Assembly (NCBI GenBank): GCA_008729055.1
Contig: SDUX01000007.1
Span: forward strand, 3,361,590-3,425,589
Source: Pyropia haitanensis
Lineage: Eukaryota; Rhodophyta; Bangiophyceae; Bangiales; Bangiaceae
Length of the DNA stretch: 64,000 nt
Reading direction: 5' to 3'
Shown piece by piece: positions 7,191 through 50,540 of the stretch. How positions within the stretch are numbered: the first letter of the stretch is position 1; the number at the start of each line of letters is the position of its first letter. The position numbers were made by a program, and so were the translations under genes. Under the pieces are notes generated by a model. It ran no database searches. It was not told the origin of the DNA and saw only the letters and a program-made list of their open reading frames with translations.

Positions 7191-7265
7191 ATGGCTTCCC
7201 CGTCGCGGCCTGTGGCCATCCCGACAGGCTCACCAGCCCCCCCCGGGGAGGTGCTGGTTGTCCTG

Positions 7266-7298
<33 letters not shown>

Positions 7299-8585
7299 CT
7301 CATTGACCTGCTCGCCTCTCGCTATGACATGGTTGCCCGCTGTGCGGGCGGATCCAACGCAGGCCACACTATTGTTGTAGACGATGTGAAGTACGCTTTC
7401 CATCTGCTGCCGTCGGGGCTGCTCAACCCCCACGCCACCGCCGTCATTGGCAATGGCGTCGTCGTGCACGTGCCGTCGCTGATGAAGGAGCTAGCCTCCC
7501 TCGAAGCACAGGGCATCCCGCACCCAGCCTCACGGGTGCGGTTGTCGGACCGGGCTCACCTGCTCTTTGACTACCACCAGGTGGTGGACGGTCTCCGGGA
7601 GGTGGAGCGGGGGGCGGCCAAGATTGGGACGACCAAGAAGGGCGTGGGTCCGGCCTACTCGTCCAAGGCCAACCGCACCGGCCTACGGGTAGGGGACCTG
7701 CGCAATTTCCGCTCCTTCCCCGCTGCCTTTCGCCGCTCCTTGGCGTCCAAGCACAAGCGCTTCCACGCGTTTGACTATGATGTGAAAGCCGAGGTGGCGC
7801 GGTATTATGAGTACGCGCAGACGCTGGAGCCCAACATTACCGACACGGTGGCATTGATGGCCGACGCCATCACCGGCGGGGAGCGGGCGGTCGTGGCGGC
7901 GGGAGGGGGCGCCACGCCAGTGCCGTCGCCGTCTGCGTCGGTGCTCGTGGAGGGGGCTAATGCGGCGCTGCTGGACGTTGACTTTGGCACCTACCCGTAC
8001 GTGACGAGTTCCAACTGCACCATTGGCGGCGTGTCCACCGGCCTGGGCATCCCACCGAGGCACGTTGAGCATGTGGTCGGCATTGTTAAGGCGTACACCA
8101 CCCGGGTCGGGGAGGGCCCATTCCCCACCGAGCTCCTCAACGAGCAGGGCGAGAGACTACAGCGCGTCGGCCACGAGTACGGCACGACGACCGCGCGGCC
8201 ACGGCGGTGTGGGTGGCTGGACACGTTCATGCTGCGGTACACCAACTCGGTCAATGGCTACACGGCGGTCGGGCTGACCAAGCTGGACGTCCTGTCCGCG
8301 TTTGAGACGCTCAAAATCGGGACGGGCTACACCGTGCGCGGGCGCCGGTGCGCCTACTACCCAGCCAGCTTGGAGACGATTGGAGAGGCAGAGGTGGTGT
8401 ACGAGGAACTCCCAGGCTGGGAGGGTGTGGACATCACTCAGACTCGCACCTGGGAGGCGCTGCCCGAGAACGCACGCAAGTACGTGGAGCGGGTAGAGCA
8501 GCTGATGGGGGTGCCGATCCAGTGGATTGGTGTCGGGCCGGGCCGTGACGCGGTTATTGTGCGGAGTCCAGCACCGGCCTCCTGA
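7191..8585 (+). CDS. ADSS: Adenylosuccinate synthetase
   Basis: Catalyses GTP-dependent condensation of IMP and aspartate to adenylosuccinate, the first committed step to AMP (EC 6.3.4.4). The 464-aa single-exon frame is full length for the family. It shows the P-loop-like GAQWGDEGKGK near residue 28 with the catalytic Asp, GGSNAGHT (second catalytic His), IGTTKKGVGPAYSSK (IMP loop), NCTIGGVSTGLG, and the GTP-binding KLDVLSAFE. The first 20 residues are Pro/Ser-rich and lack an obvious transit peptide, so the enzyme may be cytosolic (inference). The start at 7191 lies in a good context (CGCCATGG). The AT-rich stretch just upstream is the likely promoter. Confidence 0.97.
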
Positions 8586-12065: not shown

Positions 12066-13850
12066 TCACTTCCATAATGGGAGCCACTGCCGCGCGAGGT
12101 GCTGCTCGGCGGTCAGCGGCGCCGCGTATACCCACGGCGACCAGTAGACGTACGCGGCGGCCATGCCAGCAATCCCCCCCGCCGCGAGGCCCGCCTTGAC
12201 CACCCGCCACGGCAGCAGGTCAAACACAACGACCGCGGTGGCTTGCGCAAAGAAGAGGCCCGGCAGGAACTGGTAGAGCTGGCCGTACCGGTAAAAGATC
12301 ATGGTCGGCAGCATAGAGCCCGCCCAGCCAAGGAAGAGCACCGACGCGCGCCGCAGGCCGTCATTGACCCACACCGGCGTCGCGCGGCAGTAGCGGTAGC
12401 GGACGGCGTAGAAGAGGACGAGCACAAACGCCAGCAGCAGCACGTCAACAATGACAATCATGGCGGGGTTCATCAGCGCGTAGATGATGCCCGCCATGGT
12501 CGGGTCGGCGCCGTCTGGTGTGGGGCCCCGGTAGTAGAGGGTCCCCCGATAGTTGATGAGCCACTGATACCACGGGGAGCCATTGCTCGAGTCCCCGCGG
12601 ACGCCCTTGGAGTAGTTCATGATCAGCCGGTTGAGCTCTACAAACTTAGCCCACGTGGACAGCGTGCACACCGCACCGCCATCCGCGGAGGTGGGCGACG
12701 CAGCCGCCACGCCCGCTGCTGCCACGTCCTCCGCTGCCTTGGTCGCGTTCTTCAGGCAGTCCTGGAAGGGGACGCTGACAAAGGCGTCGCCTTCGCCCGA
12801 CAGGGGGACGAGCTCAAAAAACGCGCCGAAAACGACAAAGTAGGCGCCAAAGAGCACGACAAAGAGGGCGGCCAGCTCCCAAATCGACACGGGCGCGGGC
12901 AGGAAGGGGGACACCCCAAACGCAGACACCACCAGGATCAGCATCGGCGTTGCAAATGACGTCCAGCGGGTGGCCAGCGCGAGGCCTGCCCATGTCGACG
13001 TCAGGCCCATGTATACCACCACGTGCGCCACATCCAGGGCGCGCAGGGAGCCCGCCGCCGCCTTGGCCGTCGCCACCCGCTTGGCGTCCCAAAACATCAG
13101 CGCACAGTAAAAGGACGCCTCGCACAGAAAGACGAGCAGCGCCTCAGGCATGATCAGGCGGGACTGTACGACGGAGAGGGTGTCGAGCAGCACAAACGCC
13201 GCACCAAGCACAGAAGCGGACCGCGACAGCCGCAGCTGCCGGCACACACGGTACAGCAAAGGAACGGCGAGGGTGCCAAACAGGGCCGACGGCAGGCGGG
13301 CGGCCCAGGCCAGGTCGGCGGCAGGGAAGGCCTCCCCAAGGTTCCCAAAGTTGAACGCGTTCGGGTCAAAGCCCGCCAAGGAGGCAATGCCAGCCAGCAC
13401 CAGCTTGCTCAGCGGCGGGTTGACGTCAAAGAAGAAGCGGTGCGTGAGGGTCCAGTTGAGAAACTTGCCATAATGGTACTCGTCATACACGACGGCGTTG
13501 GGGGAGGACAGGCCGCGGAAGCGGAGGATGGCGGCCAGCACGGCCAGCAACAACGTGACGCCCGTGTCCACCCACGTGATGCCAGCCAGAGAGAAGAGGT
13601 CCGTGGTCACGGGCGTCGGCGCTGGCGATCGCCGCGCGGCCTCCCGCTTGGCGGGCGTGGCGGCAGGGTTGGCGCTGCCGCCGGCCACAGCGGGGCGGGG
13701 CGCAGCCGACGCGGCGGCGGGGTCGGCCACAGCTGCGGGCGCCTCGGCCTTGCCGCCACGCCGCTGCCGCACCGTACCCGAAGTGGGAGTCTTGGCACCG
13801 CTGGCCTTGATACCCCCAGCCTTGGCTTTGCCACCACCACCGCCCGCCAT
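12066..13850 (-). CDS. PMT: Protein O-mannosyltransferase (PMT family) lacking MIR domains
   Basis: ER membrane GT39 enzymes transfer mannose from dolichyl-phosphate mannose to Ser/Thr of secretory proteins. The 594-aa single-exon frame starts at 13850 (MAGGGGGK). After an 80-residue Ala/Lys/Pro cytosolic tail and a first TM comes VVYDEYHYGKF, with the catalytic Asp-Glu pair at residues 123-124, and then FFFDVNPPLSK (canonical FDVHPPLxK). Many hydrophobic segments follow. NGSPWYQWLINYRG corresponds to the HPWYSWP-like motif, and MIFYRYGQLYQFLPGLFF is a late conserved segment. Fungal and animal PMTs carry three MIR repeats in a long central luminal loop. Here that loop is only about 95 residues, Ala-rich, with one CLSTW-like patch, so MIR is absent. 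An upstream in-frame extension to 14063 is poorly structured and was not used. Confidence 0.9.
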   Translation of the reverse strand: MAGGGGGKAKAGGIKASGAKTPTSGTVRQRRGGKAEAPAAVADPAAASAAPRPAVAGGSANPAATPAKREAARRSPAPTPVTTDLFSLAGITWVDTGVTLLLAVLAAILRFRGLSSPNAVVYDEYHYGKFLNWTLTHRFFFDVNPPLSKLVLAGIASLAGFDPNAFNFGNLGEAFPAADLAWAARLPSALFGTLAVPLLYRVCRQLRLSRSASVLGAAFVLLDTLSVVQSRLIMPEALLVFLCEASFYCALMFWDAKRVATAKAAAGSLRALDVAHVVVYMGLTSTWAGLALATRWTSFATPMLILVVSAFGVSPFLPAPVSIWELAALFVVLFGAYFVVFGAFFELVPLSGEGDAFVSVPFQDCLKNATKAAEDVAAAGVAAASPTSADGGAVCTLSTWAKFVELNRLIMNYSKGVRGDSSNGSPWYQWLINYRGTLYYRGPTPDGADPTMAGIIYALMNPAMIVIVDVLLLAFVLVLFYAVRYRYCRATPVWVNDGLRRASVLFLGWAGSMLPTMIFYRYGQLYQFLPGLFFAQATAVVVFDLLPWRVVKAGLAAGGIAGMAAAYVYWSPWVYAAPLTAEQHLARQWLPLWK

Positions 13851-14719
13851 GACAGGGCGGGCGGTCCGACTGACGACGGCGCGCGCAAGGGCAGGGGCGC
13901 GCGGAGGGGGGCGGGGTAGGGGGTAGCCACAGGAGAGGGAGCAGCGTGGAATCGGGGGGGGAATGGGTCCAACCACACGGGCGGTCACAGTGGATGACCG
14001 CCACGACGGCACGGCGCCGTCCAACGCTGCTGTACGCCGGGAGACAGGCCGAGCGGGTCGCACCTTTGGCGAGGACCACGGTGGGGCCGGACTACACGGC
14101 CTTCATCTTCCCTGACAGTGTCGACTCGATGCCCGAACAATTTATCCATCGGATCAAATGACCTGTGCCGAGTACTTCCCAGCGACAAAAAGTATACAGG
14201 TCATGCCCCGTGCAACGTGGCAAAGCTTGTCCATGCATCGCACCGGCACGGCTGCGTCGGCAGCACTGCGGCATCAGCTCGGGCATGTGCCCGTCCACCT
14301 ATGGCAACGGCTGCGACCAAGGAGGCACAGGTGAAACAGGTGTGGGAAGCTCAGGTGTCATGTGTGCGCGCACCGCAGAGTTGGTGCGCATGGACTGGGG
14401 CCGCCCGCCGAGGTAACTGGCTTGCCATGGGAGGTCGTGGAGGGCGTCGGGGGCGCAATCAAACGTCGAGCCGTTAACCGTCCGCAGCGCTTCTGCTACT
14501 ACAGTCTACTGTGGCCAACCGACGAGCTTTCCAAGATGCAACAGCTGCTCAGCTGTTGTGGATTCGCCTCGTCATAGCCGCGGCCTGTCACAACCGCCGG
14601 TTGCAGCGTCGCGGGACCGGTGGCGCCGGCGGCGAGTGGCCACTCCACGTTTCTTCCCAAACACTACACACCGTCACTCTTGGAGCCACCCGGCGGCCAC
14701 TCTCAGCGTCCTCCTGAGT
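13851..14719. other. Intergenic region upstream of PMT
   Basis: No gene seen. A more AT-balanced stretch at about 14100-14220 is a plausible promoter region for PMT, which reads leftward from 13850. The other end is the 3' flank of the DUF202 gene. Confidence 0.4.
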
Positions 14720-41916: not shown

Positions 41917-44900
41917 TTACGCGTGCGATGGGGGCGACGTGACGTAGCGGGTGCGGAAATGGTGGCCAAAGCCATTGAAGGAGCTCGCCGCAGACGCAGC
42001 ATAAGCGCCCATACCGCAAAACACCAGCACATCACCCACGTTAAGCAGCGGCAGGAACCCCCCCCAAACTCGATCAAGACTGTCACAGGTGGGCCCAAAC
42101 AGCACGGACGGGAAGCAGCCGCGACCGGGAGGGACCGCGCCCAGTGGCGACGCCGACTGGCCGCCCAGCAGCACCCGGTTGAACGCCCCGTACACCCCGT
42201 CGTTGAGGTAGTAGAGGACCGACGACGGCTCGGGGGTACTCACAGGCCCTCCGGCTGTGACGGATCCCGGGTTGCCTTCGCTGACACCCCCATCGCAACC
42301 GCCGGCGCGACAATCCCCACCGCCACCACCACTGCCGTCCCCCCCTTCCTCCGCCCCCGCAGACTTCAGCCGCCGCGCAATGACCGTCACGGCGAGCGTG
42401 ACAGCCTCGCCAACCACAAATGGGGCGGCGCCCGCAGAGATATCACCCATCACATCCACAGCCTTGCACAGCGATGCCAGCAGCGCTGTGGACTGGTCAG
42501 AGAGGAAGCCGCCCGACAGGTGCACCTCCAAAGGCGGCAGAGCCCGGCCATTCTCCCCACGCGCCACCCGAGACATGGCAGACACGCACGCGGCGGCACG
42601 GCGCAGGCCCGCCACGTCGGCCGCCGCCGGCGCGTCGACGCGCAAGCCGACGAGCACTAGCCCCGCGGCGACCGCGTCAGCGGCGGTGGCAAGAGACGAA
42701 GACACCGCTGAGGCGCACACCTCCACCTCAACGCCCACCCCCGGCAGGTAGGCAGCCACTCGCTCTATCGTCGGCCGATCCGCACCCACGGCCAGTGTCA
42801 CAGTGCCTGCTAGCCTCCCCACGGCAGTACGGGCAAGGAGCTTACGCGACAGCCCGACGGCGGCGAGCGTCACCCGGGCGGGCGTCACGCCCATCGACGC
42901 GAGGAGCTCCAGCTCGGCCAGGCCAGACGCCTCAAAATCCGCGCCAAGCGCTGCCAAGAGTGACACCACCGCCCGGTCAGGGTTGCACCGCACCGTGTAG
43001 CGGAGGCGTGCGCCGGTAGCAACAAGCGACCAGTATCGGTCGGCAACGGTCGAGAGACAGACTGCAAAAGTCGGCTCCTCCAGACGGGCGGCAGTCTCGC
43101 GAGCAACGCGAGCCCCATCGCTGGACGAGACGGGGATGGCGCCATAGAGGGCTGCGACGTTCGCCACTGCCACGTCAAAAGCAAACTTGGAAACGCCCCC
43201 GCCTCCGCCGCCGCCGCGACGCACGTTGCAGACTCCGGCCTTGTCAGCCAGCGACTTTCCGTCGCTAGCCCAGCAGCTGATGGGCGGTGGCAGTCGCTGC
43301 TCCTCCTCATCATTCCCAATACGGCACCCACCAGAGGTGGACACATCCAATGGACATGCCACCGCACTGGAAACCTCAGACGCCGGGAAGGTGGCGCCCA
43401 CCCCCTCAAGCGCTAGGGCGTAGGTGCACACCGACGCCACGTACAACCCCCCGCGAACGGTGGCCAACCGCTGCCACACGGGCGCGCCGGTGGCACCGTA
43501 GCCTGCCCGACGAGGAGCGTCCCAGTCCAGCGGTGCCGCCTGGTTATCAGCCACGGCCCCTTCGCGCCCGTCGGCCAGAACTGAGACGGTCACCCGGCCC
43601 GGTCGAAAGACAGACAATATACCCTGCAATAGAGGCGTCAGGTCCGCATCATCCACATTGCACTCAAACGACACGTAGCTGCAGTGCGACTCAGGAGTGA
43701 TGTGAACCGTGTAGTACGTGCCACCGGCCGCAAGGCCGTTCATGCTGTAGCCGCACGGCTCAAAGTTCCACGCGTCAACCACAGTGCCAGAGCAGAGGAG
43801 GGTGTCCAAACGGCAAACGCGGGTGGTGACCTCGGCGGCGCAGTCAGGAGGGCGGGTGCCCACCGGCGGGCTTCCACCGTCGCCGTCATTGCCGCCGCCG
43901 CTACTGCCGGCAGATGCCATCACTGCGGCACCATCGGCCGGTGACCCGCCGTCGGCGGGTGGCACGGTGATAAAGTGCGCCATCACCGTCGGGTCCAGGT
44001 CAAACATGAACACCTCGAGCGTTTGGGCTGAAGCTGCTTGCGCGGTGGACTCGTCCTCCCCCGACGGCGGGCGACCCGCCACGTACAGGTGCCAGCCAGC
44101 CACCCCATCGGGGGTGCCCAACACGGAAGCTTCGCCATGAAAAAACCGATCCAGGAACGCCACCTCGGCTGCCCACGAGGTGTGCGGGTAGAGCTGCTGC
44201 TTGGGATACGTAAACGCCGTCCGAGAATAGGCCACTGCCGCTACGTTCAGGAGGCGACAAGCGGCCAGCCGCAACAGCCGCGGGATGGCACGCAGCAGCG
44301 TCGTGGTCCCGCACGTCTTGATCAGCACCTGGCGGGCAAAGACGAACAGCGACGACTCGGACAGAAGATAGGCGTCGCAATCGGCACTGCGCTTCACCGA
44401 CAGCACCGTGCAGCGGGCGTCCGCCAGGACAGCGTCCCACTCCTCCCGCGAAGCGCTGCGGAGATCATAGGCGGCGCCCCCGCGGGCCTCGTCGGCACGG
44501 CCGCCCTCGCCGCGGCCAACACCCCCGTCGCCATCACCGACCAGCGGACGTTCCTCAGCGCCAGAACCGCGGTTGCCGCCAGGTTTGCCGGCATCGTCGA
44601 AAAAGTCCGCCGAGCTGCCAGAGTCTCTGTCTAGCGTCGTCCGGCCGTCAAAGTGGGTCAGCACGTCGGAGCGAGTGTAGCTGAGGGCAGTGGCGTCGGT
44701 GGGGTCCTCGGAGAAGCTGCTGCTGCCGCCGCTGCTGCTAGTATCGTCAGCGTCCTCGGCGACGGTGCCGCGGTCGGCAAAGTCGTCAATTGAGTGGCGG
44801 AGGACGGTCGACGAGGGGTCCCGGGCAGGCGACACCATCGGATCAAACGAGAGGACCAGCTTCTTCTCAGGGCCTTCAAACACGTCCAGCGGCTCGGACG

Positions 44901-45030
44901 GCGCGCCCGAGGCGCTTACCACGTGGGCATCAGCGGACAGCGAGGGCAGCGACTGGTTGCCATGGCTAATGTCCTTGTTACTCGCGTCCGGGGACAGAGC
45001 TGGCATTTCAGTACGCCCGGACTGCTTCAT
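41917..45030 (-). CDS. AMD1-ODC: AdoMet decarboxylase-ornithine decarboxylase-like fusion; ODC half lacks PLP-site residues
   Basis: 1037 aa, one exon. Residues about 48-545 are S-adenosylmethionine decarboxylase: FEGPEKKLVL (substrate Glu pair 52/55), YLLSESSLFV (proenzyme cleavage E225-S226, pyruvoyl Ser226), IKTCGTTTLL (Cys240), FEPCGYSMNG (Ser429), YTVHITPE (His443, Glu447). An acidic/Ser insertion of about 130 residues follows the first motif. Residues about 610-1037 have the ODC/alanine-racemase fold: YTVRCNPDRAVVSLLAALG (K69 of YAVKCN is Arg681), LYYLNDGVYGAFN, FGPTCDSLD (C982/D983), GMGAYAASAASSFNGF. The GGG phosphate loop, His197 motif and EPGR loop are lost. AdoMetDC makes the aminopropyl donor for spermidine. 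The ODC part probably regulates rather than catalyses (inference). Start at 45030 is chosen over 45129 on context. Same domain order as the Plasmodium bifunctional enzyme. Confidence 0.93.
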   Translation of the reverse strand: MKQSGRTEMPALSPDASNKDISHGNQSLPSLSADAHVVSASGAPSEPLDVFEGPEKKLVLSFDPMVSPARDPSSTVLRHSIDDFADRGTVAEDADDTSSSGGSSSFSEDPTDATALSYTRSDVLTHFDGRTTLDRDSGSSADFFDDAGKPGGNRGSGAEERPLVGDGDGGVGRGEGGRADEARGGAAYDLRSASREEWDAVLADARCTVLSVKRSADCDAYLLSESSLFVFARQVLIKTCGTTTLLRAIPRLLRLAACRLLNVAAVAYSRTAFTYPKQQLYPHTSWAAEVAFLDRFFHGEASVLGTPDGVAGWHLYVAGRPPSGEDESTAQAASAQTLEVFMFDLDPTVMAHFITVPPADGGSPADGAAVMASAGSSGGGNDGDGGSPPVGTRPPDCAAEVTTRVCRLDTLLCSGTVVDAWNFEPCGYSMNGLAAGGTYYTVHITPESHCSYVSFECNVDDADLTPLLQGILSVFRPGRVTVSVLADGREGAVADNQAAPLDWDAPRRAGYGATGAPVWQRLATVRGGLYVASVCTYALALEGVGATFPASEVSSAVACPLDVSTSGGCRIGNDEEEQRLPPPISCWASDGKSLADKAGVCNVRRGGGGGGGVSKFAFDVAVANVAALYGAIPVSSSDGARVARETAARLEEPTFAVCLSTVADRYWSLVATGARLRYTVRCNPDRAVVSLLAALGADFEASGLAELELLASMGVTPARVTLAAVGLSRKLLARTAVGRLAGTVTLAVGADRPTIERVAAYLPGVGVEVEVCASAVSSSLATAADAVAAGLVLVGLRVDAPAAADVAGLRRAAACVSAMSRVARGENGRALPPLEVHLSGGFLSDQSTALLASLCKAVDVMGDISAGAAPFVVGEAVTLAVTVIARRLKSAGAEEGGDGSGGGGGDCRAGGCDGGVSEGNPGSVTAGGPVSTPEPSSVLYYLNDGVYGAFNRVLLGGQSASPLGAVPPGRGCFPSVLFGPTCDSLDRVWGGFLPLLNVGDVLVFCGMGAYAASAASSFNGFGHHFRTRYVTSPPSHA

Positions 45031-45846
45031 CAACGAGGCGACAAAACCTCCCAGCTGCCAAGGACGATCACAACGGAACAAGCAAGCGCGACAGGGGGCG
45101 ACACGAACAGGGGCGACGCAACACCGCAATCAAATAGGAAGGAAGAAGATGGACTGGGAGCAAACACGGTCGCCTGCGCCCTGCTAGCTAGGTGCCTTGG
45201 CAGTGAACCCAAACACGTCTACAGCAGGGGGGAGGGAAGCCTGGAGGGACGACACGCTCAGGTGGACAGCACACGTGCGACCAATCTGCATTGGCGCCAG
45301 GCTGGGCGGAGGCCCGGCTCGGCCCGCGACGAACAGGCCGGCAAACGCAGGGGGTAGGACGGTGAAGGAAGGAGGAGCGGGGGGCTTGGCGGCAGCGAGG
45401 AAGAGGGGAGAGTCTTGTCGCCGCTGGACCCCTGCAGACGCACACCGCAATGCACCAGACGTGACCGCTTGGAGGATGACCGCGGACGACGGCGAAGGAA
45501 GAGGGATCGGCAACGGACCAGCCGTCACTGGCCCAATGCTGTCGACTGTCCCGATTGGTGTAGGGTGCCGCCGGCGGACGAGGGGTCGCAGGCGATCCCG
45601 TGGGCGACCTCACCCACATCGGGTTACACGGCAATTTCAATTCACACGAGTGACTCGGAACCCTCCCTGGTGCAGCACTGCCGCGCGTCATTGGCCAGGG
45701 CGGCCGGCCACGTCTCATTGTTGGCGGCCGGCGCTGTCCTCGTGCTCGAATTCCCAAACAGATTTCGCCGGTAGCCTAAACTGTTCAAAGGATCATCATT
45801 GTAGCCCCCTACGTCCATAAGGCGGTAAGTTGTCTGCAGTTTCGAT
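45031..45846 (-). other. 5' leader/intergenic region upstream of AdoMetDC-ODC
   Basis: Reading leftward, 45184-45528 is a 114-codon frame (MTAGPLPIPLPS ... VFGFTAKAPS) ending 153 bp before the AdoMetDC start. It may be an upstream ORF or chance. The stretch 45040-45140 is pyrimidine-rich in the gene direction, like a 5' UTR or an intron end (CCTTGGCAG). 45600-45840 is AT-balanced. The probable last exon of RPA12 abuts at 45847. Confidence 0.35.
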
Positions 45847-47151
45847 TTACTCACGCAGTCCAGCATCCATTGTCTCATTTCTTGCGCGGAGGGGACAGAC
45901 CGACCGCCGGCTCTGGCTTCAGTGCAAGATTGCTCTTATCTGGTGTCATACGGATACCTCTCACGTGGCACCAGCAGGGCGGCTGGTGGCGGCATGAGTG
46001 CCCGCCGCGGTACCGGCTTGACGCCAAGACTGGTACATAGAGTTTGTGGCAAGTAAAACAAAAGAGCGGCCGCAGCCGCCTTATGAGTTGTGGGTGAACT
46101 TGTACCTGTGACACACCAATTGGGGAACCGCAGCGTCGGGACAGAGAGGGCAAGCGCCGGAGCTCCCCATGCGCGGCGAGCCACACGGCACACCAGAGTT
46201 CCGTCAGTCATCCGCCAGTGTACACCACAGATGCCTCTGATGCCGCTTGCAGACACCACCAGCTGAGCCACTAGACGCAGCCAGACCCCCACACGACACG
46301 CAGTCCACCCAACCACCAGTCGCTGGACGAGCCCCTGTCGTTCTCTCCCGTGGCAATGCGCGGCACCCACCACCGTGTTCACGTACTTGCACTTGAGACA
46401 AGTGTAGAAGATGGTCTGGCCCTCGTCGGCAGACCGAAGCTGTGCCGTGTGGAAAGACATCTTGTCGTTCTTGCACTGGGGACACGTCTCGCTAATCTGC
46501 ATGCCGCATCACGCCGCCGTCGACGAGCCCAGAAAAAAAAAAAGACATGTCCAACAAGAGACAGCCACGGGGGCGACAGTGCAAACAACGAGCGTAGCAG
46601 AACGCATCGACGGTAGCCGTGGCGTCAGAGACGCTTCAGCGTACCCCTCATCAACAGGCGAGAAAAACCTATCATGATGAAAAGCTTCCCGCAAGCTTTC
46701 TCCGTACCCAAGCGCTTGCATGTCATGCGGTGGGCACGCGTCAAGAGCGCGCCCCCCTCCCCACCCCCCCCCCCCGCCCCCACCAAGCGCACGTCACGAC
46801 GGTGCGGCATCTACGCCGCCGCCGCCCTCCCCCCAGCCACCCCCACTTGGCCGCCAACCCACACGACTCTCTCTCTCTCCCGAAACGCCACGCCCCCCCC
46901 CACCAGCCTCCCCGCACGCAACTCCCGCAACGTACGACGGCCTCCTGGGCGCCGCCCACATCCGTGGCCGCCTCGGTCAGCTGGCGCAGCGTCTCGGACG
47001 GCGCTAGCCGGCGGCGGGTGACTAGCTTGAGGCCCCCACCGGCTTCCTCATTGGGCAAAGACGAGCCACACACGTCGCATGCGGTCGCGCCGCCGGCGCA
47101 AAGGAGGAGGACCGCGCCACAAGCACCACAAAACTCTGACGACATGTCCAT
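45847..47151 (-). CDS. RPA12: RNA polymerase I subunit RPA12 (A12.2)
   Basis: A small TFIIS-like subunit that supports RNA cleavage by Pol I. Exon 1, 46936-47151 (72 codons), encodes the N-terminal zinc ribbon: EFCGACGAVLLL and TACDVCGSSL, two CxxC pairs. Exon 2, 46387-46496, encodes the C-terminal ribbon: CPQCKNDKMSFHTAQLRSAD followed by EGQTIFYTCLKCK. The RSADEGQT loop contains the catalytic acidic pair and is diagnostic of RPA12/TFIIS. Introns start GTACGT. The final exon is tentative: 45847-45880 would add ten residues and a stop, giving 119 aa, the usual family size, but its acceptor is AAG and the end lacks the usual KF-x-x-N. Divergent from POP5 with 384 bp between starts. Confidence 0.88.
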
Positions 47152-47535
47152 GGCTGGTGCCCGCAGCGCGAAGAGGAGGCGGTCAGAGCAGTGTGGCGGA
47201 GAAGAAAGGGGGAGAGGAAGTGCAGGAGGACGTATGGGTGCGCACCTGGTGCGGGGGGGAGACCAAATCGTCGCAGGCTGCCGGTCGGTCGTGAGGCAGC
47301 GGGGGCGGGATGAAACGGCAGGCTCGTAGCAGCGACAAGATCAAGCGAAGCCGACGCCGTCGGCAACACACGGTGCTTGCGGATCAAGGGCTAATTAAGG
47401 AGTTGTTGAACGTCTTGTTCACGGCAGGCTTGTACGCCATCCCACCCTCCCGGGCCGGCAGCGCTGCTGTCTGGTGTGCGTCTCCCACTCGTCTACCTTG
47501 TTTCCAGCTCCCACGGCCCACCAAGAGTCGCGCCA
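47152..47535. promoter_or_regulatory. Divergent promoter, RPA12 / POP5
   Basis: 384 bp between two outward-reading RNA-metabolism genes. A more AT-balanced patch around 47370-47430 is the best core promoter candidate. No motif was recognised with confidence. Confidence 0.45.
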
Positions 47536-47877
47536 ATGCCGCCTACTGGCGGGCTCGCCCCCCCCCTCACCACCAAGCCGCGGTCTGCCTTTGTCCGGCT
47601 GCGGGCGGTGACCCCCCCCCCCACGCGCCGCCCGCCTCGGCGGCCGACTGGACCGCCCTCCTCGCTGCCGCCCTGCCCGCCGCGTTTGGCGACGCGGACG
47701 GCGCGCGGCTGGCGTATCGCGTCCTGTCCACCGCGGCCGGGGAGCGCCCCGGCGAGGCGGTTGCGATCGTGCAGGTGCGGGCGGGGGAGGAGCGGCGGGT
47801 GTGGGCGGCGCTGACGCTCGCGACCGCCTACGCCGGCCGGCCGGTGCGGGTGGACGTGGTGGGCGTCGCGGCGTGGG
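47536..47877 (+). CDS. POP5: POP5, RNase P/MRP protein subunit (3' end unresolved)
   Basis: POP5 is a core protein of RNase P (tRNA 5' maturation) and RNase MRP. The start MPPTGGLAPP leads to KPRSAFVRLRAV, equivalent to the KPRYLLVEL beginning. A C11 run (47612-47622) then breaks the frame; one more C continues into ADWTALLAAALPAAFGDADG (the GDFG-like segment), RLAYRVLST, and then EAVAIVQVRAGEERRVWAAL, matching AIVRCxRxxxRxVWAAL, followed by VRVDVVGVA. The usual SGTIRxCQ segment should come next but is not visible in any frame. It may lie in a later exon beyond a G-rich stretch around 47878-48030. The end given is the last residue I can align. Confidence 0.75.
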
Positions 47878-48523
47878 GGATGGGGGGGGGGGTGCTCGGC
47901 CGCCGCGTTGGGTGGGCCCCCCTGGCGGCGGCCTCGGCGCCGCCACCGGGGGGGGGGGCGGCGCGGCGCCCGGCGCGGGGGTGGAGATGGATGTGGGCGG
48001 CGTGTGAGGGGGGGGGGGGGGGCGCGGGCGGCGCAGGCGAGCGCGGCTCGGCGTTGGGAGTGCGGGCGGCGCGGCTGTGGGCGGCGTGGCGGTGTGGGGT
48101 AGGGCCATCGCGACGGCGTTGGGTTGGCTGCCGCTGGGGACCCGCCCCTGCCAGTCGCCGGGCCCTCGTTGGCGCGCCGCATTCAAGCCACCGAGCTGGG
48201 TCTGGGGGCGCCCCAGGCGCGGCTGGCCGCTGTATTGGCCACCGCCCTCTAGAGGTGGGCCCTTGTGTGCGCGGTGGGCAACCTCGAGCGGCCATAGACG
48301 TCCGCAAGACCCAGGTGGCAGATGTCTGCCGGCCGTGGTCCACCATCACCGACCCGCCGGTGGCAGGCACAAGCGTTGCTTGTGGGGTCGCTTGGAGAAA
48401 AGAGCTCAGTCTGATAACAACCAAAGGACAGGGGCAGGAGCGCACGCACCACCACCATACACGCACAACACGTGCGCCCACAGACCCCGGGTGCGGCCAC
48501 CTGCGCGCCTCGACGACCCCTCA
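47878..48523. other. Region after POP5
   Basis: G-runs on plus, then GC-rich sequence without a recognised gene. It may include the missing C-terminal exon of POP5 and the 3' UTR of kinase B. Confidence 0.3.
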
Positions 48524-50540
48524 TCAACTGTAAAACATTTTGCTGACGCGCATGGCAGTGATGGCAGGGATCTTGGGGTTTTCCTCGAGCCACTTGGTCA
48601 GCTTGTCGGCGGTCCCCATCATCTCGGCCACCACCTGCATGTCGTCCACGCAGTCAATGTCAATGTCCTGCAGCCTGCTCACCACGTCGTCAATCTTCTT
48701 CTGCGGCTTGCCGGGCAAGGCGTCCTTGACAAACACGTCCAGGTCTTGGCCGTCGTACTTGGACGCCAGGTCCCTGAGGCCGCTGCCGCTGCTACCGCTG
48801 CTACCGCCGGGGGCACTGCGGCTGCTCGCGCCAGAGGCCACGCTGTCACGGGACCGGTTGCCGTGGCCCGAGCCTGTCGACGGGATGTGGTCACGGCTCC
48901 TGCCCGTGCCGCTGCCACCGCTGCCGCCACCAGAGCTCGACGAGTTCTTCCGCGTGCGCGACTTGGACCGTTCCGAGCTGGACCCAAACGACCGCCCCGA
49001 ATCCCCCAACGCGTCCCCAGTGTCGTAGTCAACGAGGAACCACGAGTGCTTCTTCACATCCTCCAACGAGTACCTCTTCTCTGGGTCTTTCACCAGCAGG
49101 TGACAGATCAGATCCTTGGCGTCTCCGCCCATCCAGGATGGGTAGGGCACCTTGCACGCGTTGATCAGTTCGTACAGCCGCGTCATGTCGTCGTGCTGGA
49201 ATGGCAACACCCCCGTCAGCAGCAAGTATAAGATGATGCCGCAGGACCAGGCGTCGATCTTGACGCCCGAATAGCCCTCCTCGGCCCCATTGATGATTTC
49301 GGGGGCGCAGTAGTAGGGCGTGCCGCAGGCAGTGTAGAGGAGGTCCGACCCGACGCCTCCCTTCATGGAGGACACGCCAAAGTCGGTGATCTTGAGGACC
49401 CCATTCTCGTCCACCAGCAGGTTCTCGGGCTTGAGGTCCCGATGGCAGACTCCCCGCCGATGACAATAGTCGATGCCGTCTATGAGCTGCTGAAAGTACT
49501 TGCGCGCGAGCGCCTCGTCCAGCTCACCCTTCCGCTCGATCATGTCAAACAGCTCGCCGCCACGTACCAAGTCCATGACGATGTACAGCTTGCTCTTGGA
49601 GGACAACACTTCCCGCAGGTTCACAATGTTTTTGTGGTTCAGCGCCTTCATGATGGCGATCTCCCGCCGGACGTTGACGGTGAGCTCATTCGCCTTGATG
49701 TCCCCCTTGTCCAGGATCTTGATGGCGTACTCCATGCCCGTGTCCGAGTGCTTGGCAAGCTTCACCTTGCCAAAGGTGCCCTGACCTGAGTTCAAAAGGA
49801 TGGAAAGGCGAGTCGCGAGTGGCCGAGCGCAGGAGCAGCGTCAAGTAGGGAGCCACATGTCAGTGTCATGGCATCGCACCACATCAATAAGGGGCGCCGC
49901 CACTTTGCGAACCGATTGCCGGTCCAGGGGGCTCAACCGGTACACAGAAGCACAACGGTGGGATCCTCACTCGTAACCGCACGCCTATCCACCCCCACAC
50001 ACAGCTACACACACAATCGCCAGCACACCAGCTCAGCAAGACACACGTACCCAGCGTGTCGGTCACAATGTAAGGTCCTGTGCAACGCAAACGCCGCAAC
50101 AAACAAGGGAGGGAAAACAAAAAAAACAGCCAAGGCAGAGCGACAGACTCGACCACGTCAGTCCCTGACACCCACCAACGGCAGCTACGAGGCACGAAAT
50201 GCGTTCCCGCTGAGCCGTCGTCGCCGAAAGGTCCAACGCATGGCTCCTGGGCATGCTCGGCTGGACGCGCAATCCTCCGGGTACGTTCCATGTGCCCCAG
50301 AAAGGTCCATCAAAGACCCCGAGCAAGCCATGAGCATGCTCCAAAAAGGCCCTGAGAAGCAGTGGTCGAGCCAGGCGCCCCCCCTCCACCGTCCTGCCAG
50401 GCTCCACTGCCGCCGCACCCTCCCCACCCCGCAAAACATCCTCCTCCCAGCTTCCCAACGTCCCCGCTCCCCAGATGGCCTCCAAGTTCTCGCCGCAACA
50501 GTGCGCATCGCAGCGACCAAAACACACCTACACGTGCCAT
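48524..50540 (-). CDS. SNF1/CAMKL-type protein kinase B with conserved C-terminal domain
   Basis: 433 aa from three exons: 50528-50540 (13 nt, MARVG), 50051-50077 (27-nt microexon, PYIVTDTLG) and 48524-49785. The coding total of 1302 nt is divisible by three. Core motifs: GQGTFGKVK, YAIKILDK, RREIAIMKAL, HRDLKPENLLV, DFGVSS, CGTPYYCAPEII, DAWSCGI and a HSWF end. A Ser/Gly/Arg-rich linker of about 80 residues (275-349) is likely phosphorylated and disordered. The last 84 residues (350-433) align without gaps to the end of kinase A, 43 of 84 identical by hand count. They include RLQ-x-x-DIDCVDD and a WL-x(5)-IP-x-x-TAMR motif. The activation-loop Thr is conserved. Lower codon extremity and a fully intact frame contrast with many neighbours. 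Confidence 0.95.

Follow-up and report, generated by a model that had tools for sequence, protein, structure and literature searches.

A candidate split ornithine decarboxylase in red algae, with half of its active site carried by an AdoMetDC fusion protein

A gene of the red alga Pyropia haitanensis joins two enzymes of polyamine synthesis in one chain: an active-looking S-adenosylmethionine decarboxylase (AdoMetDC) and a domain related to ornithine decarboxylase (ODC) that has lost its site for pyridoxal phosphate (PLP), hereafter the pseudo-ODC. The gene lies on the reverse strand at 41917..45030 of a 64,000-nucleotide stretch of contig SDUX01000007.1 (assembly GCA_008729055.1, positions 3,361,590 to 3,425,589), which we call the window. 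The best explanation for this protein and for the genome's sole close stand-alone ODC, P0002, and one that we consider probable, is that the two chains pair as AdoMetDC-pseudoODC : ODC, a heterodimer in which one ODC site is a hybrid. The pseudo-ODC, unable to hold PLP, would dimerise with P0002 and lend it four residues, Y323', C360', D361' and F397' (in the numbering in which the Schiff-base lysine is K69), and P0002, in which C360 and F397 are replaced (N546 and I583), would provide the PLP site. Neither protein should work well as a homodimer; of the two sites of the heterodimer, one would be a working hybrid and the other dead, with ornithine as the presumed substrate. The fusion would then be an active AdoMetDC that also provides half of an ODC active site; the supply of putrescine would be tied to the amount of AdoMetDC, and both enzymes that make spermidine precursors would sit in one complex. 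The basis for this reading lies in the two sequences, their reciprocal losses, the folds of both chains and the conservation of the pseudo-ODC.

The reading builds on the way in which ODC subunits share their sites. A passage of PMC3543441 on the T. brucei enzyme assigns Cys'360, Asp'361 and Tyr'323 to the other subunit and writes Tyr331 and Asp332 without the prime. In human ODC, according to an excerpt of PMC11912471, Phe397 (chain B) and Tyr389 (chain A) cradle modelled ligands, and a portion of PMC3289617 describes a bridge from K169 of one ODC chain to D364' of the other. The same portion reports that two Entamoeba ODC mutants, K57A and C334A, each inactive, gave 29% activity through a heterodimer when mixed. 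The PLP is held on one subunit and Y323', C360', D361' and F397' are lent by the other; by sequence, the fusion and P0002 are complementary in this way.

The fusion protein and the stand-alone ODC

The fusion locus is a single unbroken frame, AdoMetDC followed by the ODC-like domain, with 1037 codons counted from the ATG; the frame stays open beyond it to a TTG at 45129, and residue numbers below are those of the open reading frame. Among related fusions, P0003, P0004, P0006 and P0007 begin at most one codon from the same ATG, and P0005 begins downstream. A predicted model of the whole protein matches both the AdoMetDC and the ODC fold. The AdoMetDC domain (residues 82-574, 43408..44886, reverse strand like all features of this gene) matches PF01536 with 285.7 bits (cut-off 22.2) and TIGR00535 with 241.5 bits (cut-off 233.15). 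In A1, an alignment of 40 proteins, E85, E88, E258, S259, C273, S462 and H476 are invariant and E480 is present in at least 90% of the proteins. We take E258-S259 (44353..44358) to be the Glu-Ser proenzyme processing site, corresponding to E67-S68 in human numbering, and the listed cysteine, serine, histidine and glutamate to be AdoMetDC active-site residues. The original prediction had claimed that the AdoMetDC half keeps its active-site elements, and with all of the listed residues in place, invariant or nearly so, we agree; this half looks active. No second AdoMetDC match was found elsewhere in the genome in a six-frame family search.

The pseudo-ODC (residues 660-1067, 41929..43152) has the barrel-plus-sheet-domain fold of PLP-dependent ODC (fold type III). 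At the position of the Schiff-base lysine K69 it carries an arginine, R714 (42988..42990), and D88, R154, H197, S200, E274, G276 and R277 are all replaced, in line with the earlier claim that the PLP site of the ODC half is dead and that Arg stands in the lysine column. The residues that an ODC subunit lends to its partner are all present: Y980 is the counterpart of Y323 (42190..42192), C1015-D1016 of the catalytic pair C360-D361 (42082..42087), and F1051-N1052-G1053 of the lent F397-N398-G399 loop (41971..41979). D1019 (42073..42075) corresponds to D364, the salt-bridge partner of K169' across the interface. In the predicted model, residues 1052-1056 have a confidence score (pLDDT) under 50, as has a glycine-rich insert between the two ODC subdomains (residues 925-964, 42238..42357). 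Identity to P0004-P0007 is higher in the C-terminal ODC domain (91-93%) than in the AdoMetDC domain (81-88%); the pseudo-ODC barrel is 85-90% identical, the lent loops are 100% identical in all four comparisons, and the linker and insert (insert residues 926-962) are 62-78% identical. The pseudo-ODC is strongly conserved and gives no impression of a relic in decay.

Five places in the genome match the ODC N-domain family, and a search with a Galdieria ODC returned the same five: the fusion, P0002 (at G000:C7), two further genes on C3 and C2, and a piece on C116. Among these, P0002 is the sole close stand-alone ODC; a frame of the OKR_DC type elsewhere in the genome is taken up below. P0002 has 597 residues from its ATG, and its predicted model matches ODC; two segments of it align with the mouse and human enzymes (E 1.3e-84 and 1.3e-83). 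It keeps all PLP-side residues checked (K217, H350-S353, GGG, EPGR and Y575) and retains Y323 and D361, but it has GPTND where ODC has GPTCD, which replaces C360 by N546, and has no FNGF, with I583 in place of F397. The fusion keeps the trans-acting residues, and C360 and the F397 loop are gone from the stand-alone ODC, so the pseudo-ODC is better understood as one half of an active site than as the allosteric or regulatory cargo proposed in the original prediction.

Reciprocal losses across red algae and beyond

The column comparison used 168 of 269 proteins. It included 22 red algal fusions, namely the window's own and 21 of 31 matches, and 41 red algal stand-alone proteins, namely P0002 and 40 of the best 120 of 6304 matches. 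The groups were taken from the tree, and few of their members carry a species or genus name. Those that do come, for the fusions, from Pyropia vietnamensis, Porphyridium, Rhodochaete and Agarophyton chilense and, for the stand-alone proteins, from Pyropia vietnamensis, Gracilariopsis chorda, Gracilaria domingensis and Palmaria palmata; the others are red algal by tree position. The reference set of intact ODCs (46 fusions and 33 stand-alone proteins) was picked by hand, mostly for being intact, and serves as a yardstick, not as a sample. P0030, which is without an ODC part, and P0003 and P0034, which are the window genome's own proteins again, were dropped; P0014 is absent only from the trees, and the aberrant P0175, P0202 and P0231 fall outside every group.

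The two groups have lost opposite halves of the site. Across 14 PLP-side residues, the red fusions keep 104 of 308 cells and the stand-alone proteins 572 of 574; across the four lent residues, the fusions keep 80 of 88 cells and the stand-alone proteins 79 of 164. Counted by protein, 19 of the 22 fusions are broken on the PLP side and complete in the lent residues, and 37 of the 41 stand-alone proteins are complete on the PLP side and broken in the lent residues; of the remaining stand-alone proteins, three lack nothing on either side and one, a fragment, is broken on both. C360 is found in 20/22 fusions versus 7/41 stand-alone proteins. Within the fusions, Y323 is kept in 21, D361 in 20 and the F397-N398-G399 loop in 19 of 22; in the stand-alone proteins F397, N398 and G399 are kept in 12, 9 and 13 of 41, respectively. 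K169, whose salt bridge to D364' belongs to the productive site, is present in 41/41 stand-alone proteins and 0/22 fusions, and its partner across the interface, D364, is universal in both groups (22/22 and 41/41). Lysine occupies column 69 in a single red fusion of the 22. P0026, from Agarophyton chilense, has Lys at column 69, with most other PLP-site residues gone.

Of 64 family-invariant columns, six are kept in fusions (at least 0.8) and relaxed in stand-alone proteins (at most 0.7): C360, F397 and Y323, which are lent active-site residues, N398 and G399 of the F397 loop, and Y316. This pattern has a hypergeometric probability of 0.0018, with kinship between the sequences ignored, and 33 of the 64 columns show the opposite direction. 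At position 360 the red stand-alone proteins carry R, N, G, Q, L or H, and a Fitch count gives four changes between C and non-C in the stand-alone clade of 57; six different residues at one position argue for relaxed constraint, not for one new function.

The fusions and the stand-alone proteins also separate in the tree, where support is 0.998 for the red fusion clade (21 proteins) and 0.995 for the clade of red stand-alone proteins. The stand-alone ODCs of red algae, the cyanidial clade and glaucophytes group together (0.999), and red, glaucophyte and unknown-host fusions form another group (0.947), from which it follows that the two genes parted long ago. Intact fusions do not join that second group in one clade but lie among other ODCs: fusions as a whole are not one clade, since 33 other ODCs fall among them (support 0.211), and ODC may have been fused once or several times.

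All 13 stand-alone ODCs of the cyanidial clade (seven of them named; clade support 0.554) are complete. No named cyanidial fusion was found among the matches listed, many of which are unnamed, with short unfused proteins outside the length limits. In the 57 red, cyanidial and glaucophyte stand-alone ODCs, the stretch that stands in place of the D332 segment LYDHA is mostly of F(K/R)D..L type, an unusual substrate loop, the otherwise intact cyanidial proteins included. In glaucophytes, all four fusions, P0154 (Gloeochaete wittrockiana by taxid), P0155, P0156 (whose tag we take for Cyanophora) and P0010, are broken on the PLP side and complete in the lent residues (clade support 0.399); S200 is changed in all four, and D88, K169 or H197 in some. 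The three glaucophyte stand-alone proteins are complete on the PLP side, have lost C360 (Y, H or N instead) and keep F397. Glaucophytes hold a milder version of the red algal pattern. Six fusions of unknown host (P0158, P0160, P0162, P0163, P0165 and P0229) keep 21 of 84 PLP-side cells and 24 of 24 lent cells, and constitute a second clade of pseudo-ODC fusions. In these six, K69 is R (four proteins) or K (two), R277 is K throughout, and GPTCD and FNG are complete.

The original prediction knew a fusion of the two enzymes only from Plasmodium-type parasites, a limit that did not hold up: 84 of 96 proteins longer than 600 residues are canonical at all 18 columns examined (by its Pfam domains P0192, which is among the 84, is no AdoMetDC fusion), and fusions whose ODC half looks intact were seen in Closterium, the fern Adiantum, Bryopsis, Nephroselmis pyriformis, Vitrella and others. 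The fusion is widespread. The mechanism proposed here, a split ODC site completed in trans, is more specific than the earlier reading. A table in PMC6356823 gives one accession for both ODC and SAMDC of Micromonas pusilla, which we read as a fusion, and an ODC was cloned from the red alga Grateloupia imbricata and its expression followed, as summarised in an excerpt of PMC4337235.

A wider picture is possible, if somewhat doubtful, in which red algae and glaucophytes would share an ancient split ODC whose two genes lost opposite halves, so that ODC activity would depend on a complex tied to AdoMetDC. Dimerisation of AdoMetDC and heterodimerisation of ODC would together produce a higher-order assembly in which the ratio of the two spermidine precursors is fixed, and the unknown-host clade would be predicted to have a stand-alone ODC without C360.

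Alternative readings and known systems

Several observations weigh against a heterodimer with a hybrid site. Three of the 22 red fusions (P0009, Porphyridium P0014 and Rhodochaete P0017) have lost lent residues, and no stand-alone partners of these three were found; of the seven stand-alone proteins with C360, three keep all four lent residues, and D361 and Y323 persist in 33 and 27 of the 41. The only sure same-species pairs come from the window genome and from Pyropia vietnamensis (P0007 with P0039). The glaucophyte fusions keep K69 (4/4) and lose just 8 of 56 PLP-side cells, which makes a homodimer conceivable there. D332, a substrate-binding residue of the PLP side, has given way to other residues in red (41/41), cyanidial (13/13) and glaucophyte (3/3) stand-alone proteins alike; since it is lost from all 57, their substrate may not be ornithine. 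The genome also encodes an OKR_DC_1-family frame (L012:460-2196, reverse strand, on G000:C8), which has long glycine and alanine runs and carries a lysine in what we take to be the S-x-H-K motif of this family. It is possibly an ornithine/arginine decarboxylase as in other algae (PMC6356823, in part). With an agmatine deiminase match and two spermidine-synthase-family frames also present, the OKR_DC-type frame and the deiminase may offer another source of putrescine, and ODC is possibly not the sole one.

The replacement of D332 and its surroundings in all 57 proteins, together with the absence of C360 from 34 of the 41 red ones, would also fit a stand-alone enzyme that works as a homodimer, with a novel chemistry or substrate for which C360 is dispensable, in which case the C-terminal loops of the pseudo-ODC would be kept for folding or for regulation of AdoMetDC. 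We regard this as quite unlikely: position 360 holds six different residues in the red proteins, not one; the D332 change is shared by cyanidial proteins that retain C360 and F397; and F397, N398, G399 and Y323 are relaxed along with C360. A pseudo-ODC that binds the stand-alone ODC as a prozyme-like activator or scaffold, without lending catalytic residues, is unlikely too. It could account for the conservation of the barrel, and trypanosome AdoMetDC and deoxyhypusine synthase (DHS) are indeed activated by dead paralogs, AdoMetDC by relief of autoinhibition (PMC3663545, in part), but it leaves unexplained both the lent residues kept in the fusions and the loss of C360 and the F397 loop in the stand-alone proteins. 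As for an antizyme-inhibitor-like decoy or an antizyme-responsive degradation module in the sense of the original prediction, which we hold to be very improbable, no support emerged; the antizyme family PF02100 has zero matches in the genome, but also zero in 14 control genomes. The gene was read from DNA, which would leave room for an assembly error or for two genes read as one; with one unbroken frame, a near-identical protein (P0003) from another source and the same two-domain architecture in 21 other red fusions, such an artefact is scarcely credible.

Among known systems, the bifunctional AdoMetDC/ODC of Plasmodium has the same domain order on one chain, AdoMetDC N-terminal and ODC C-terminal, and both of its halves are held to be active. 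The window protein differs in that its ODC half lacks the PLP lysine, by which, judged from sequence, it is not a bifunctional chain of that type, and in that the genome has a separate ODC gene. Serine palmitoyltransferase (LCB1/LCB2) is a PLP-dependent heterodimer whose lysine-less subunit still helps to form the site, like the role proposed for the pseudo-ODC; it belongs to another fold type and pathway and is not fused to a neighbouring pathway enzyme. The antizyme inhibitor of animals has no AdoMetDC domain, whereas the window protein carries one. The animal inhibitor acts by binding antizyme, according to a passage of PMC5518511, which also cites Ivanov et al. 2010 on recurrent inactive ODC homologs and credits that paper with suggesting that homologs form heterodimers with ODC.

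In Trypanosoma, active polyamine enzymes are paired with catalytically dead paralogs (PMC5201418, in part), as in AdoMetDC/prozyme and DHSc/DHSp. The likeness drawn in the original prediction was apt in that the window genome, too, has what is by sequence a dead paralog of one of its own enzymes, the pseudo-ODC beside P0002. There the dead paralog activates; here it would lend catalytic residues and is fused to a pathway enzyme. The closest parallel to the proposed heterodimer is the Entamoeba mixture of K57A and C334A (PMC3289617, in part), with the same two-residue complementation and one working site per heterodimer; those were engineered point mutants, and the case here would be natural and spread over two genes. 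No description of a reciprocal decay of two ODCs was found among the titles and abstract beginnings listed in searches of the openly licensed part of PubMed Central.

If the heterodimer is real, it would repeat in nature the mixing of mutants by which ODC sites were shown to be shared between subunits: each of the two genes would have lost the half that the other retained, until both became unable to work alone. In red algae, the product of a gene annotated as ODC would then need a partner annotated as AdoMetDC to make an enzyme, and this would be a new coupling of two steps of polyamine synthesis. The evolution of an obligate heteromer would become testable with possible intermediates that are still extant, because intact proteins, half-decayed glaucophyte pairs and varied red algal pairs all survive.

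Neighbouring genes and other decarboxylase-like frames

The window also contains an adenylosuccinate synthetase (7191-8585, forward strand), a protein O-mannosyltransferase (12066-14063, reverse), a TFIIS-type zinc ribbon (45936-46502, reverse) and an Rpp14/Pop5-family frame (47310-48533, forward); no pathway link to the fusion was seen among these neighbours. Elsewhere in the genome, the gene on C3 is a diaminopimelate decarboxylase (387.7 bits against the lysA cut-off of 297.9). A second lysA-like gene (L003:937-2580, reverse strand, G000:C2) encodes a 547-residue diaminopimelate-decarboxylase-like protein that scores 203.1 bits, below the same cut-off, and has, by eye, EFGRS for EPGR. The match on G000:C116 (L004, 12,253 bases) is an ODC-family frame with an internal TGA, next to an Lrp-like frame; the sequence looks bacterial by eye and probably comes from an associated bacterium rather than from the alga.

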